Source of the DNA: Halomonas sp. BDJS001
GTDB taxonomy: Bacteria; Pseudomonadota; Gammaproteobacteria; Pseudomonadales; Halomonadaceae
Assembly: GCF_026104355.1 (NCBI RefSeq)
Contig: NZ_CP110535.1
Coordinates: forward strand, 4,588,001 to 4,652,000
Direction of reading: 5' to 3'
Length of the DNA: 64,000 bases
Positions 54,334 to 60,005 of this stretch are shown piece after piece. The notes below the pieces were generated by a model, which did not search any database, was not told where the DNA came from, and saw only the letters and a program-made list of their open reading frames with translations. Positions within the stretch are counted from its first letter, which is position 1, and each line of letters opens with the position of its first letter. Both the position numbers and the translations under genes were made by a program.

Positions 54334-54411
54334 TTGACTTTGCCTTACATGATGATAACCTCCGCTTCTTACTTGCTTATTTCCTCTCTTATCGTTTGCG
54401 GATCGTTACCC

Positions 54412-56565
54412 ATGCACGCGCTGTTATTTGCAAAATCGCCTTTTTCCAAATCGCCGTCTTCAACCGCTGCGCTCATTGGCACCGGCCTTTTACTGGGTTT
54501 CTCCAGCAGTGTTTTCGCCCAAAATACGGTGTCAAACGCGGACGAAGAGGAGACCATGGTTGTCGTGGGATCCCGTACGCCCACCCAGATTAGCCAAATC
54601 CCTGGTGCGGTATGGGTCATTGATAAAGAGATGCTGCAACAACAGACCCGCAATGGTGCAGACCTCAAGACAGCACTGGGGCGTCTGGTGCCGGGGCTGG
54701 ATCTGGCACCGCAAGGGCGCACCAATTATGGGCAAAATATGCGCGGTCGTGGTGTACAGGTACTGATCGACGGTGTATCGCTGAACGGTTCCCGTAGTCT
54801 TTCCCGCCAGTTCGATGCCATCGACCCCTTTAATATCGAGCGTGTGGAAGTGCTTTCCGGCGCCAGCAGCCTGTATGGCGGCGGCGCTACGGGTGGCTTG
54901 ATCAATATTATTACCCGCAAGGGCGAAGAAGGCCTGAACTGGCGGACGGAAGCTGGCATCACATCCGGCTTTAACAACAGCGATGATATGGACCGCCGCC
55001 TCTCGCAATCGATCAGCGGTGGAAATGAGTTTGTTCAAGGCTACCTGGGTACAGCCATTAGCGATAACGGCCGCCACTATGACGGTAGCGGCCAGGAAAT
55101 CTTCCCTGATATCGCCCAGACCGACCTGCAGGACAATCGCAGCATTGATGTATTGGGCAACCTCTCTTTCCGCTTGACCGACGAACAGAGTCTGGAATTG
55201 GGTGCCCAGCTCTACCGTTCAGGCTTCGAAGGCAACCGGGGTGTTTATTTTCCCAACCTCGACGCGGCCACGCCCAACTTAAATGATGCCGAGATTCGCG
55301 ATGGCTACCGTTCACAGCGCGATCCGGAAACCGACCGTAAACTCGTCAACATTAACTATCACCACGCCAACCTGTGGGGGCAAAACTTCTACCTGCAGGC
55401 ATTTCACCGGGAGGAGGAGTCCAGCTTCCAGGCATTTCCCTACCCAGTCGACGACGGTCTGCAATTTCGCGCCTCACAGCAAAACACCGACTTAAGCGGC
55501 ATCAAGGCGCTGTTTGAGTCACGCCTGGGTGATGACGTTTCGCTAACCTACGGCCTCGATCTGGATCGTGAAACCTTCGATGCCAGCCAAATGCTGTTCG
55601 ATACCGACATCTCGAACGCCTCCGGCGGTCTGGTGCAACAGGCATCTGGCGTTGAACCCCGTTACCCCGGCTATCAGGTGGACGGGCTCTCAGGCTTTGT
55701 GCAGGGCGACTGGCAAGCCACTCAGGCACTTAAACTCTCTGCCGGTTTGCGCCAGCAGCACATGGACGTCGAAGTGGATGAATTCCAGGGGATTCCTGGC
55801 GGCAAAAATGACTACGAAGCGACGCTCTTCAATGCTAGCGCCCTCTACGACTACCGCAATGGACACCAGAACTGGCTGCAGTTCAGCCAGGGCTTCGAAC
55901 TGCCAGATCCCGCCAAATACTACGGCAAGAGCCCCGACGTCAGTGTCGATAACAACCCGTTATCTGCCATCGAGACGGATCAAGTAGAGCTAGGCTGGCG
56001 CTACCAGGGGGGCAACTGGACGGCCCAAACAGCGCTTTACTACGCCTGGTCGGACAAGGCGGTAGAGAACGCCGAGGATTTAAGCGTCAGCGTTGTGGAT
56101 GAGAAGAAGCGTGACTTCGGCCTGGAAAGCGCCGTGACCCGTTACTTTGATAATGGCCTGGAGGCCGGGGGCACTCTGCACCTGGTGCGTTCCGAGCAGG
56201 AGAACGACCAAGGGGAGTGGGAGAAACGTGACGCCCGCTATGCCTCGCTCTCTTCCGCCACCGCCTTTATCGGCTGGACAGATTATGTTCGCTCGGCGCG
56301 CTTGCAGGCCAACCATAACTTCGACCTGAAGGACGATGCTGACCGCGAGATCGATGGCAATACCACCCTCGACCTATCGCTCAGTCAAGACACCGACTTC
56401 GGCACCCTAAGCCTGGGCGTGCAGAACCTGCTGGATGACCAGTACTCCACCGTCTGGGGTCAGCGCGCCGCCATGTTCTATTCGCCCTACTACGGCCCGG
56501 AATACCTCTACGACTACCAGGGCCGCGGGCGTACTTACACACTAAACTGGTCGATGGAGTACTGA
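54412..56565 (+). CDS. TonB-dependent receptor, ferric aerobactin receptor-like (IutA)
   Basis: A 717-residue outer-membrane receptor. Signal peptide around TAALIGTGLLLGFSSSVFAQ, TonB box EETMVVVGSRTP, plug with NMRGRGVQVLIDGVSLNGSR and SLSRQFDAIDPFNIERVEVL, then SGASSLYGGGATGGLINIIT. The VLIDGV-LN-SR and RQ-DAIDPFN-ERVEV patterns are those of IutA. The barrel ends RTYTLNWSMEY. Start ATG 54412 is chosen because it directly precedes a normal signal peptide; the longer frame (54334) would begin against the Fur-like site. No aerobactin synthesis genes are in the window, so it may serve xenosiderophore uptake. Confidence 0.9.
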   Translation: MHALLFAKSPFSKSPSSTAALIGTGLLLGFSSSVFAQNTVSNADEEETMVVVGSRTPTQISQIPGAVWVIDKEMLQQQTRNGADLKTALGRLVPGLDLAPQGRTNYGQNMRGRGVQVLIDGVSLNGSRSLSRQFDAIDPFNIERVEVLSGASSLYGGGATGGLINIITRKGEEGLNWRTEAGITSGFNNSDDMDRRLSQSISGGNEFVQGYLGTAISDNGRHYDGSGQEIFPDIAQTDLQDNRSIDVLGNLSFRLTDEQSLELGAQLYRSGFEGNRGVYFPNLDAATPNLNDAEIRDGYRSQRDPETDRKLVNINYHHANLWGQNFYLQAFHREEESSFQAFPYPVDDGLQFRASQQNTDLSGIKALFESRLGDDVSLTYGLDLDRETFDASQMLFDTDISNASGGLVQQASGVEPRYPGYQVDGLSGFVQGDWQATQALKLSAGLRQQHMDVEVDEFQGIPGGKNDYEATLFNASALYDYRNGHQNWLQFSQGFELPDPAKYYGKSPDVSVDNNPLSAIETDQVELGWRYQGGNWTAQTALYYAWSDKAVENAEDLSVSVVDEKKRDFGLESAVTRYFDNGLEAGGTLHLVRSEQENDQGEWEKRDARYASLSSATAFIGWTDYVRSARLQANHNFDLKDDADREIDGNTTLDLSLSQDTDFGTLSLGVQNLLDDQYSTVWGQRAAMFYSPYYGPEYLYDYQGRGRTYTLNWSMEY

Positions 56566-56614: not shown

Positions 56615-57598
56615 ATGGCTACACTCGGCTCAATAACGCCATCTTGCGTACCACTCACCACCCATGACCTGCTGGCTATTGGTCAGCGCTTCGGGATCGA
56701 CTACCGCTTTCCCGAAGCGCCTGACCGCTCCCAGCCAGCGCCCTGTGTTGCCCGTGGGCGGGTGATGGACGTCGAGATAGACCCCACGCTGCGGGTGACA
56801 CACTCTGATCTTGACGTCCTGCACGCTTACGCCTCCACTTCACGGCGTGCCGCGCCGTGGTTTCTCAGCGTGATACTCGAGGGCCATATCCAAGTCGGCC
56901 TAGGGCAACAGTCGTTTCAGTTGCAGGCCGGCGGCGCCTTCAGTGCCCATTTCAACGAGCAGACCGGGCTTGAGGTCTTCCAACCCGCACCACAGCATTT
57001 GCGCATCCTCAACCTCTCAATTCTCGCGGACAGCGGGTCTCTCTCTTTCTCGTCTACCAACGTGGCCCCACCGTCAACGCCGGTGCTGCATACCTGGCAG
57101 GTGCCGCCGCTTCTTCGCCATAGTCTTGAAGCGGCACTGGCGTCGAACTGGCCAGCAGAGCGACAGCGCCTATTATGGCAGGGCCTAGCACTCCAGTTGC
57201 TCGCTCACGGGCTGCCCGACGCCTACCTCGAGCCCAGAGAAACAGAGCAAGCAGTAGGCCAATCGCAGGGGCTCTCCCATCGCGATCACCAACGTCTGGA
57301 ACGTTTGCGCAAGCAGCTCGAAGAGCACCCCTACCAGGTGTATCGGCTGGAGCAGATGGCCCGCAATGCGGCCATGAGTCCCAGCAGCCTACGCAGCAAA
57401 TTTCAGCGCTGCTACGGCTGCTCAATATTCGACTATTTACGCCGTTGTCGCCTGACCCAAGCTCAAGACTACTTACGCAAAGGTTATAGCGTGCAGCAAA
57501 CCGCTCACGCCTGTGGCTACCGCCACGCCACCAATTTTGCCACCGCCTTTAAGCGCGCTTTTGGCATTGCGCCCCATGAAGTACACCATCGCCATTAA
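56615..57598 (+). CDS. AraC-family regulator, PchR-like
   Basis: A 327-residue regulator. The N-terminal part includes APWFLSVILEGHIQVGLGQQ, GGAFSAHFNEQTGLEVFQPA and the C-terminal AraC domain EQMARNAAMSPSSLRSKFQR, CSIFDYLRRCRLTQAQDYLR, VQQTAHACGYRHATNFATAF, KRAFGIAPHEVHHRH. This layout is that of PchR/YbtA-type regulators, which bind an intracellular siderophore and activate receptor genes. It lies between two siderophore receptors on the same strand and probably controls one or both. Confidence 0.88.
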   Translation: MATLGSITPSCVPLTTHDLLAIGQRFGIDYRFPEAPDRSQPAPCVARGRVMDVEIDPTLRVTHSDLDVLHAYASTSRRAAPWFLSVILEGHIQVGLGQQSFQLQAGGAFSAHFNEQTGLEVFQPAPQHLRILNLSILADSGSLSFSSTNVAPPSTPVLHTWQVPPLLRHSLEAALASNWPAERQRLLWQGLALQLLAHGLPDAYLEPRETEQAVGQSQGLSHRDHQRLERLRKQLEEHPYQVYRLEQMARNAAMSPSSLRSKFQRCYGCSIFDYLRRCRLTQAQDYLRKGYSVQQTAHACGYRHATNFATAFKRAFGIAPHEVHHRH

Positions 57599-57631
57599 AA
57601 GCCGCAGGGTTGTTTTTGGAGCGGTCAGGAG

Positions 57632-57764
57632 CCTCTGATTAACGTAATGAGCGCAGGCCAGACAAGGCAAAAATCAACGAAAAAGCGGAGTTTACGTGGG
57701 TGTAAATGAGCATTTTGAGGCGATTTTTAACGCCGTATGGGCAAGCGTAATAGTTAATCAGAGG
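57632..57764. repeat. 133-bp MITE/REP-like element with 12-bp terminal inverted repeats
   Basis: CCTCTGATTAAC (57632-57643) and GTTAATCAGAGG (57753-57764) are perfect inverted repeats. Inside, AAAAATC pairs with GATTTTT and TTTAC with GTAAA, so the whole unit can fold into a long imperfect hairpin. It has no coding capacity. Elements of this look (inner GCGGAGTTTAC and AACGCCGTATGG) are, from memory, dispersed in Halomonas genomes. Confidence 0.65.
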
Positions 57765-57849
57765 TTTCCTAAGTTCCTCTGTTGGACATTTTTTGGCAGT
57801 ACGCATACGCCCTTTGTCATTGCGCATACCTTTCAGCAGCCATTAAGCG

Positions 57850-57864
57850 CAATAATTCTCATTA
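57850..57864. promoter_or_regulatory. Fur-box-like site upstream of the FhuA-like receptor
   Basis: CAATAATTCTCATTA matches the 7-1-7 Fur consensus at 9 of 14 positions, about 40 bases before ATG 57903. Match is moderate. Confidence 0.4.
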
Positions 57865-57902
57865 ACACATTGGTTAATTGATGCTTATTGCAGGTACCTC
57901 CT

Positions 57903-60005
57903 ATGTTAATCCCCCATCACCGTTTTCTACGCTCTCCGCTTAGCGTCGCCGTTCTCTCGGCACTGGCTGTTTCTCCGCTATACGCTCAAGAAAGCACCGA
58001 GTTAGCCACCGTCACGGTCACAGCCCAGCAGGCTGCCACCAAAGTGGAAACGCCGACGATCGAAATACCCCAGAGCGTTTCCACGATTACCCGCGAACAG
58101 ATGGATAACCGCGGGGTAAGTACCGTGCAGCGCGCCACCAACTACACGCCCGGTGTTTACAGCAATCAGGTAGGCGCCTCCAATCGCTTCGACTACTTGG
58201 TACTGCGCGGGTTTTCTGACGGCAGCTTGAGCAATACCTTCCTGGATGGCCTGAAAGTCATGGGTGATGCCAACTCCCATAGCAGTATGCGCATCGACCC
58301 ATGGTTTCTGGAAAGCATTGAAGTGGTGCGCGGGCCCGCCTCGGTGCTCTATGGCCGCGCTTCCCCTGGGGGGGTGGTCGCCCTGAACAGCAAGCGGCCG
58401 GAGTTTGAACAGGGAGGTGAGCTGCGTTTCCGGGTCGGCAATAACAACCAACGCAGCGCCGCTTTTGACCTCACCGGGCCTATTGGCAAAGAGCAACGGG
58501 TGGCCTTTCGCCTGACCGGTATTGCCAGCGCCGCGGATACCCAGTTTGGCCCGGCAGAAGAGGAACGCTATGCCATTGCGCCCCGGCTCACCTGGGATAT
58601 CACCGATGACACCAACCTAACCGTAGAAGCCTACCTACAGGATGAACCCGAAGGCGGCTACCACTCCGGCGTACCTTATGAGGGGGCCGTGGTCGCCCAT
58701 AATGGCCGCAAGATCGGCAACAACTTCTTTGATGGTGAAGAGGATTACGACACCTACGAGCGAACCCAACGCATGTTCGGCTACGCCTTGGAACACCGCT
58801 TCAACGACCAGGTGACCGGCCGTCAATTGATGCGCTACCTCAATTCAGACGTGGTACTCAACCAGGTCTACGGCTTTGGCTGGGTATCACCGGAATCTGA
58901 CGAGCTCACCCGCTACTACTCCGGCAGCGATGAGTCCCTGGAAGCCTGGACGCTCGACAACCAGTTAGAAGCCAACATTAGCAGCGGCTTTATGGATCAC
59001 ACGCTGCTGTTCGGGGTGGATTACCAGCAGCGGGAGAACGATGTATCGTGGCCCACTGGGTATTTCCCGCCGCTCAATGCGTTTGACCCGGTTTATGGCA
59101 GCGACCCCATCGAGTTTTACGCCCCGGTGCGTGAACGCCATAAGATCGATCAGACCGGGGTATACCTGCAGGATCAGATAGCCATGGATAACTGGCGCTT
59201 CACTCTGGGTGGCCGCTACGACTGGGTGAGTATCGACAATACCGACCGCGATAGCGGTGACACCAGCTCCCTCAGCGATACCCAGTTCAGTGGCCGCGCC
59301 GGGGTGGTCTACCTGTTTGATAATGGCGTGGCTCCCTACCTTAGCTACTCCACCGCGTTCACCCCCACCAGCTTCGTGGATGAGCGTGGCGACCTGCTGA
59401 AGCCCATGGAGGGCGAACAGTGGGAAACCGGCGTTAAATACCAGCCCAGCGGCAGCCAAAGCCAATACAGCGCGGCGCTGTTCCATATCCGCCAGGAGAA
59501 CGTTGCCACCAAAGAGCAGCCCACCGATCCATACCGCGCAGTGGGGGAGATCGAATCCCAAGGGCTGGAGCTGGAAGCGCAAACCCAGCTAACGGATACC
59601 CTCTCGGTTCAGGCAGGCTATAGCTTCACCGACATCACCTACGCCAAAAGCGATGATGGTAATCAGGGCAACAACGCCATTTATTCACCACGCCATCAAG
59701 TGCAGCTCTGGGGCCACTACGAGGCCAACAAGGGCTGGCTAAATGGCGTAGATATGGGTGTCGGCGTGCGTCACTACGCGGATATCGCCGCTGACCGGGC
59801 CAACACCGAAACCGTGCCCGACTACACCCTGGTGGATGCCACCATTGGCTACGACCTGAGCCATGTTGGCGTTCAAGGTGTCGAAACACGTTTAAACGTG
59901 AGCAATCTACTCGATAAAGACTATGTAGCCTCCTGCAACTCGCTTGAGTATTGCTACTTCGGTGCGGAGCGCGGCGTCACCGCCAGCGTTCACTACCGTT
60001 TCTAA
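57903..60005 (+). CDS. TonB-dependent siderophore receptor, FhuA-like (hydroxamate type)
   Basis: A 700-residue receptor from ATG 57903 (GCAGG upstream). Signal peptide PLSVAVLSALAVSPLYAQ, TonB box ELATVTVTAQQ, plug with IPQSVSTITREQMDNRGVST, VQRATNYTPGVYSNQVGASN, YLVLRGFSDGSLSNTFLDGL, and VVRGPASVLYGRASPGGVVA. The barrel includes YLSYSTAFTPTSFVDERGDL, LEAQTQLTDTLSVQAGYSFT and ends in VTASVHYRF. The PGG and YGRA-PGG patterns are those of FhuA/ferrichrome-type receptors. A terminator (60071-60100) and a FhuD-like gene follow, which supports hydroxamate uptake. Confidence 0.92.
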   Translation: MLIPHHRFLRSPLSVAVLSALAVSPLYAQESTELATVTVTAQQAATKVETPTIEIPQSVSTITREQMDNRGVSTVQRATNYTPGVYSNQVGASNRFDYLVLRGFSDGSLSNTFLDGLKVMGDANSHSSMRIDPWFLESIEVVRGPASVLYGRASPGGVVALNSKRPEFEQGGELRFRVGNNNQRSAAFDLTGPIGKEQRVAFRLTGIASAADTQFGPAEEERYAIAPRLTWDITDDTNLTVEAYLQDEPEGGYHSGVPYEGAVVAHNGRKIGNNFFDGEEDYDTYERTQRMFGYALEHRFNDQVTGRQLMRYLNSDVVLNQVYGFGWVSPESDELTRYYSGSDESLEAWTLDNQLEANISSGFMDHTLLFGVDYQQRENDVSWPTGYFPPLNAFDPVYGSDPIEFYAPVRERHKIDQTGVYLQDQIAMDNWRFTLGGRYDWVSIDNTDRDSGDTSSLSDTQFSGRAGVVYLFDNGVAPYLSYSTAFTPTSFVDERGDLLKPMEGEQWETGVKYQPSGSQSQYSAALFHIRQENVATKEQPTDPYRAVGEIESQGLELEAQTQLTDTLSVQAGYSFTDITYAKSDDGNQGNNAIYSPRHQVQLWGHYEANKGWLNGVDMGVGVRHYADIAADRANTETVPDYTLVDATIGYDLSHVGVQGVETRLNVSNLLDKDYVASCNSLEYCYFGAERGVTASVHYRF

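Follow-up and report, generated by a model that had tools for sequence, protein, structure and literature searches.

The window analysed here, a stretch of 64,000 nucleotides from Halomonas sp. BDJS001 (NZ_CP110535.1, positions 4,588,001 to 4,652,000), contains an AraC-type regulator gene at 56615–57598 and, downstream of it, a TonB-dependent receptor gene at 57888–60005, both on the + strand. The receptor coordinates are as listed; judged by eye, translation more probably starts at the ATG at 57903. A short repeat element lies between the two genes, beginning 30 bp past the stop codon of the regulator, and its placement between a regulator and a receptor in the preliminary description of this DNA is correct. 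A second TonB-dependent receptor gene (Pfam PF00593, PF07715) is found at 54334–56562, directly upstream of the regulator gene. On the other side of the element, upstream of the receptor, positions 57845–57885 carry GCAATAATTCTCATTA, which is conserved in the close relatives compared and which we take to be a candidate Fur-type operator from its resemblance to that motif.

The element had been described as a 133-bp MITE-like unit with perfect 12-bp inverted ends. The ends CCTCTGATTAAC/GTTAATCAGAGG at 57632–57764 are indeed perfect, but the length needs correction. The mobile unit, an IS5-type MITE, is 141 bp (57628–57768, + strand) and includes 4 bp more at each end, GGAG on the left and TTTC on the right, because 4-bp duplications sit exactly outside both. 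Its terminal inverted repeats are 16 bp in length, with the inner 12 bp perfect. The left repeat, GGAGCCTCTGATTAAC at 57628–57643 (+ strand), may be compared with the end GGAACCTCTGATTAA of an insertion sequence considered below; the right repeat, which reads inward as GAAACCTCTGATTAAC, is at 57753–57768 (− strand) and was placed by sequence and by the same comparison of IS ends. Between the repeats is a conserved internal hairpin module at 57649–57749 (+ strand), which scores 101.8 bits with model R1.

The boundaries are based on related copies, in which the duplications lie at offset 4/4, and on the uninterrupted site in relatives. A total of 54 full copies were compared and 8 duplicate sites were dropped. 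Among the 46 that remain, the 4-bp duplication found 4 bases beyond the ends of the 133-bp unit is exact in 20, and at least three of the four bases are identical in 35. Random pairing in shuffles yields a mean of 3.9 exact duplications and a maximum of 11, and none of the other offsets matches offset 4. The flanking duplications that had been proposed as a check are therefore present as a 4-bp signature. The target has the form NTAN on the left side in 32 of the 46 copies and on the right side in 35. It should be pointed out that 26 of the 46 lack an exact duplication, and that some (e.g. L003, L004 and L059) have none at all. The duplication of the window element itself is imperfect. The left copy, GTCA at 57624–57627, is worn, the uninterrupted site of relatives being CTAA or GTAA (n = 5), and the right copy, CTAA at 57769–57772, is supported by the sequence, by related copies and by the relatives' uninterrupted site.

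No open reading frame of 80 codons or more overlaps 57632–57764, and the element can be considered non-coding, as had been stated. The internal self-complementarity first noticed is also borne out, with folds that are far better than those of shuffled sequences: the DNA fold of the 133-bp stretch has z = −5.38, and the RNA fold of the 141-bp element is −52.1 kcal/mol with z = −6.49. In each case none of 200 shuffles equals the fold.

The search for other copies was productive. The element's own genome (4,973,483 bases) has 10 matches, of which five are full-length. The end sequence CCTCTGATTAA occurs 11 times in this genome, and 10 of the occurrences are the paired ends of the five elements; the reversed pattern, used as a control, does not occur. 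Matches were found in 49 of 78 genomes of relatives, with the element's own genome counted, and another genome (G007) has four copies that are 98.5–100% alike. Some copies vary in length. L005, one of the five full-length copies in the element's own genome (C1:3321669–3321831), is 163 bp and is lengthened by a complementary pair of short GATCGGACTCGCGCACGAG-type inserts. Inserts of this type are seen in one or both hairpin arms of L005, L008, L009, L010 and L026, and in L008 and L010 such an insert is found in place of the apical part of the hairpin.

The corresponding locus of relatives provides an empty site. The comparison used the 30 best-matching loci from a search of the 78 genomes for the AraC-type gene. 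Regulator and receptor follow in tandem at all 30, and the element is present at one, the window's own. Thus the element is neither a single copy in its genome nor conserved in position among relatives. The two genes are 307 bp apart in the window. Among the nine nearest relatives (regulator 75–86% identical) the spacing is 153–162 bp, with one exception at 213 bp. The excess of about 146 bp in the window is accounted for, give or take a base or two of drift, by the 141-bp element and a 4-bp duplication. Five close relatives read straight through the insertion point as G(C/G)TAAGTTCC, and a sixth has a close variant. The regulator–receptor interval of another genome (G002, L166) contains a tandem run with several copies of the 19-base unit GCATAGCTCTTGTTCCTAT, which other relatives do not have.

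Location between a regulator gene and a receptor gene raises the question of whether the element is a regulatory component of the araC–receptor locus, retained to control the receptor. This is highly improbable. The element is missing from 29 of the 30 corresponding loci, relatives conserve the uninterrupted intergenic sequence in its absence, and a scan of 57560–57960 detected no promoter- or terminator-like site. The receptor-side intergenic sequence is intact beside the insert and is conserved in relatives that lack the element. Most likely the insertion is specific to this lineage and neutral: it lies downstream of the regulator gene and leaves the sequence upstream of the receptor untouched.

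A transposase with matching ends was found, but in another genome. Locus L146 of G063, from another family of the same order, is a complete IS of 1,158 bp with ends GGAACCTCTGATTAA/GGAACCTCTGAATAA, an exact 4-bp duplication and an open reading frame of 330 amino acids. With the NCBIfam model IS5_4, which has a cut-off of 140 bits, the product scores 320.8, and it has the Pfam domains DDE_Tnp_1 and DUF772. This is the sole IS found with these exact ends. In the window's genome, searches with PF01609, PF05598 and the L146 protein yielded no IS5-type transposase, and the Pfam families and the L146 protein likewise revealed none in G007, which has the four near-identical copies. Within the genus, the PF01609/PF05598 route did lead to IS elements, but their ends are related and not the same (GGAAGSTCTGAAAAA), and it was set aside. 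Elsewhere G064 has a 1,274-bp IS with CAGGCTGTTGAAA ends, and MITEs of that genome have the same ends and the same type of duplication; in G040, one IS end matches a MITE of the genome. The YTARGRARCCTCTGATTAA pattern is present in 19 of 390 genomes of the order, with the window's genome counted. In one of the genomes (G215; L130, L147 and L156) the pattern matches 79 times forward and 77 times in reverse, and this genome carries a heavy load of elements of about 213 bp that differ in the interior.

These observations fit a scheme in which an IS5-family transposase, supplied in trans, would recognise GRARCCTCTGATTAA ends and insert the element into YTAR-like 4-bp targets, with duplication of the target. 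Since no IS5-type transposase was found in the window's genome or in G007, we infer the enzyme that moved the window copy: an IS of the L146 type probably mobilised the element and was later lost from the lineage. The proposal of a dispersed mobile repeat is well supported by the other copies, the flanking duplications, the empty sites in relatives and the transposase with matching ends in another genome.

The interior of the element is widespread. Of the 390 genomes of the order searched by BLAST, 93 contain the core, and these represent 52 of 142 genera. A covariance model detects the hairpin of about 100 nt across the gammaproteobacterial class, in 154 of the 369 genomes sampled and 124 of 272 genera, and many genomes have 11 or more matches; a search of 52 of the loci yielded 43 matches. 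Carriers of the core include Halomonas, Salinicola, Litchfieldella, Modicisalibacter, Marinobacterium and Pseudomonas chengduensis, and the core is also found on plasmids of Pseudomonas, Halomonas and Candidatus Fukatsuia. Further plasmid searches returned almost solely Pseudomonas records, and the relatives of MITEPsy1 named in PMC3189936 (Klebsiella, pRSB105) are not among them. Searches of phages and of E. coli genomes with blastn, a less sensitive method than the model, gave no match.

Around this core the ends appear to be exchangeable. In all, 11 end types were distinguished, and 122 of 174 independent copies have the same recognisable type on both sides. This count tolerates up to 3 mismatches in an end, and in 58 of the 174 copies one or both ends are matched loosely or left unassigned. 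Between L002 and L006, from the same genome, identity is 92.9% in the core and 42.9% in the outer 20 bases; for L002 and L085, which is from another genome, the values are 96.0% and 42.9%. One element, L009, has one end of each type and is the sole convincing hybrid. L240 and L256 were also flagged as hybrids, but their paired end types are similar and they are unconvincing. Ends may have been swapped by recombination between copies, or they may have been adapted to another IS.

The element might instead be the internally deleted relic of one IS, whereby the interior is leftover IS sequence that is palindromic by accident or as a result of copying from arm to arm. This is the usual proposed origin of MITEs (PMC3189936, in the part of that source used here), and the ends do match those of IS5-type elements. 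However, the core does not look like the interior of an IS, because nine IS loci searched with the full model and with filters off yielded a single weak match (E 0.021). In addition, a single interior is common to the 11 end types, and the mismatched internal loops of the hairpin are conserved, whereas arm copying would remove them. A relic origin is thus very unlikely. The preferred account is that of a 141-bp non-autonomous IS5-type MITE, moved in trans, which has within it a hairpin module with exchangeable ends, and we put its probability at roughly 0.9.

Secondary structural modelling of the core shows extensive covariation. Near-duplicate removal left 77 copies, and 68 of these form one alignment (A1), which omits insert-bearing and shortened copies; RNAalifold predicts 29 pairs, and 26 of these have at least one two-sided change. 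A second alignment (A2; 63 rows) was collected by BLAST without use of the structure. In A2 a 32-pair structure is satisfied in 93.9% of cells, and 28 of the 32 pairs have two-sided changes. The covariation score is 0.413, compared with 0.150 (sd 0.006) in 500 shuffles, none of which is as high, and with at most 0.085 for slid versions of the structure; the structure was derived from the same sequences, which biases the slid control in its favour, and the size of the effect is well beyond this. Mean identity is 0.90 in internal-loop columns and 0.81 in paired columns, a difference that does not reach significance (p = 0.06), and it is 0.34–0.59 in the poorly conserved apical loop. Since copying between arms would erase the mismatched internal loops, selection on the folded form of the hairpin appears to be a better reading than simple arm-to-arm copying.

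Whether the folded form acts as DNA or as RNA is a separate question. The internal hairpin might be a structured RNA that is co-transcribed with neighbouring genes, affects mRNA stability or protein binding, and is kept for that reason. The strong covariation and conserved internal loops are consistent with this, as is the position of the element 30 bp past a stop codon, likely a 3′ region; also, the + strand is the more stable as RNA in 52 of 63 copies. Covarying base pairs (28 of 32) are a property of structured RNAs, but a DNA hairpin predicts the same. Selection on a transcript is not apparent in two further counts. The wobble test gives 52 G-U and 43 A-C cells, with no excess (p = 0.41). 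For orientation, 202 matches provided 174 independent copies, 6 of them spanned by an open reading frame, and 165 were classified; relative to tandem flanking genes, 54 elements are oriented along and 50 against (n = 104, p = 0.77). A rough first count had shown an apparent bias (++ 32, −− 12), which was gone after removal of duplicate sites and better choice of neighbours. The poor conservation of the apical loop also stands against an RNA role, and there is no creditable Rfam match: the window stretch gave none at E values up to 1, and for seven loci all matches are below the gathering scores. Thus the suggestion that the element gives an RNA hairpin that changes expression finds no support in the wobble, strand or orientation tests or in the promoter and terminator scan, and a structured RNA seems unlikely. 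With modest confidence, we favour a role at the DNA level, in the spread of the element itself, because the wobble and orientation counts show no selection on a transcript. The hairpin would have been retained since it helps this spread, most likely as folded DNA.

Elements of other shapes appear to share the motif. Larger elements (about 250–590 bp) from other families have the same CCTCTGATTAA ends and two hairpin arms; these are L131, L127, L045, L047, L035 and L148, in families f2, f14 and f16. With filters off, the hairpin model matches one or both arms, the stems being shortened, in L131 (E 1.5e-10 and 1.6e-7) and L127 (E 2.3e-7). Matches in L035, L045, L047 and L148 are weaker and near chance (E 0.004–1.6). 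The elements L143 (141 bp) and L144 match the model at E 7.9e-10 and 1.1e-8. This suggests that one motif may be present in elements of several shapes. The two-armed elements seemingly have a shortened motif; on the broader interpretation given below, it would then be the loops, and not the length, that are recognised. At the other extreme, the elements at about 1552–1577 of L039 and about 1490–1519 of L152 are little more than two head-to-head ends (e.g. CCTCTGATTAATCAGAGG).

ERIC elements are covered in a review (PMC10969869), and NEMIS is named in PMC3733652. As a group, MITEs of the ERIC and NEMIS type resemble the window element in being hairpin-forming intergenic repeats, and they may lie within transcripts; they have other sequences and ends, and the window element has no sign of transcript-strand selection. 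Closest in kind is MITEPsy1 of Pseudomonas syringae, which has been shown to transpose and which its authors link to ISPsy2 (PMC3189936). According to the sections of that paper used here, it is also small and non-coding, has a similar TIR pattern (GGAAGGTCTGAAAAAGCC/GTATCCTCTGAAAAAGCC) and generates a 4-nt duplication, CTAG or YTAA; it differs in its length of 100 nt compared with 141 bp and in its ends. MITEAba12 (PMC6382973) is about 113 bp, and the TIRs on either side of its central region match those of an IS resident in the genome. It has 9-bp duplications, however, and the IS ends listed are of the GGCTTTGTTGCACAAA type. The Tn3-derived miniature elements termed TIMEs (PMC4133298) have conserved core stretches and similar predicted folds across members, but their ends are of the Tn3 type, and the portion of the paper drawn on reports no exchange of ends around one core.

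No prior description of a class-wide covarying core with exchangeable ends was found in Rfam or in the literature searched. The core letters had no match in papers, and a literature search on MITE and IS terms, with subscription journals outside its scope, did not turn up a description of the module.

Perhaps the conserved unit is the hairpin of about 100 nt and not the ends. It may be an ancient selfish DNA module, spread across the class, whose ends change so that it can ride different IS5-type transposases, and which a host or element factor recognises as a folded single strand via the conserved internal loops. This broader interpretation is tentative, and somewhat less than even odds seem appropriate. 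Integron attC sites are recognised as folded single strands via extra-helical bases, and their sequence is freer than their structure. The likeness of the hairpin core to attC sites is a working analogy, and membership in that group is not claimed.

Bacterial MITEs are usually regarded as what deletion has left of a single IS, and their interior as unimportant. By extrapolation, as no Rfam entry was found for the module, very many intergenic copies might be present without annotation. With one interior structurally conserved in 154 of 369 genomes and behind 11 kinds of ends, it becomes testable whether the core of a MITE can itself be functional, e.g. as a folded-DNA recognition site. With ends that can be exchanged, how elements switch their dependence from one transposase to another becomes testable as well.
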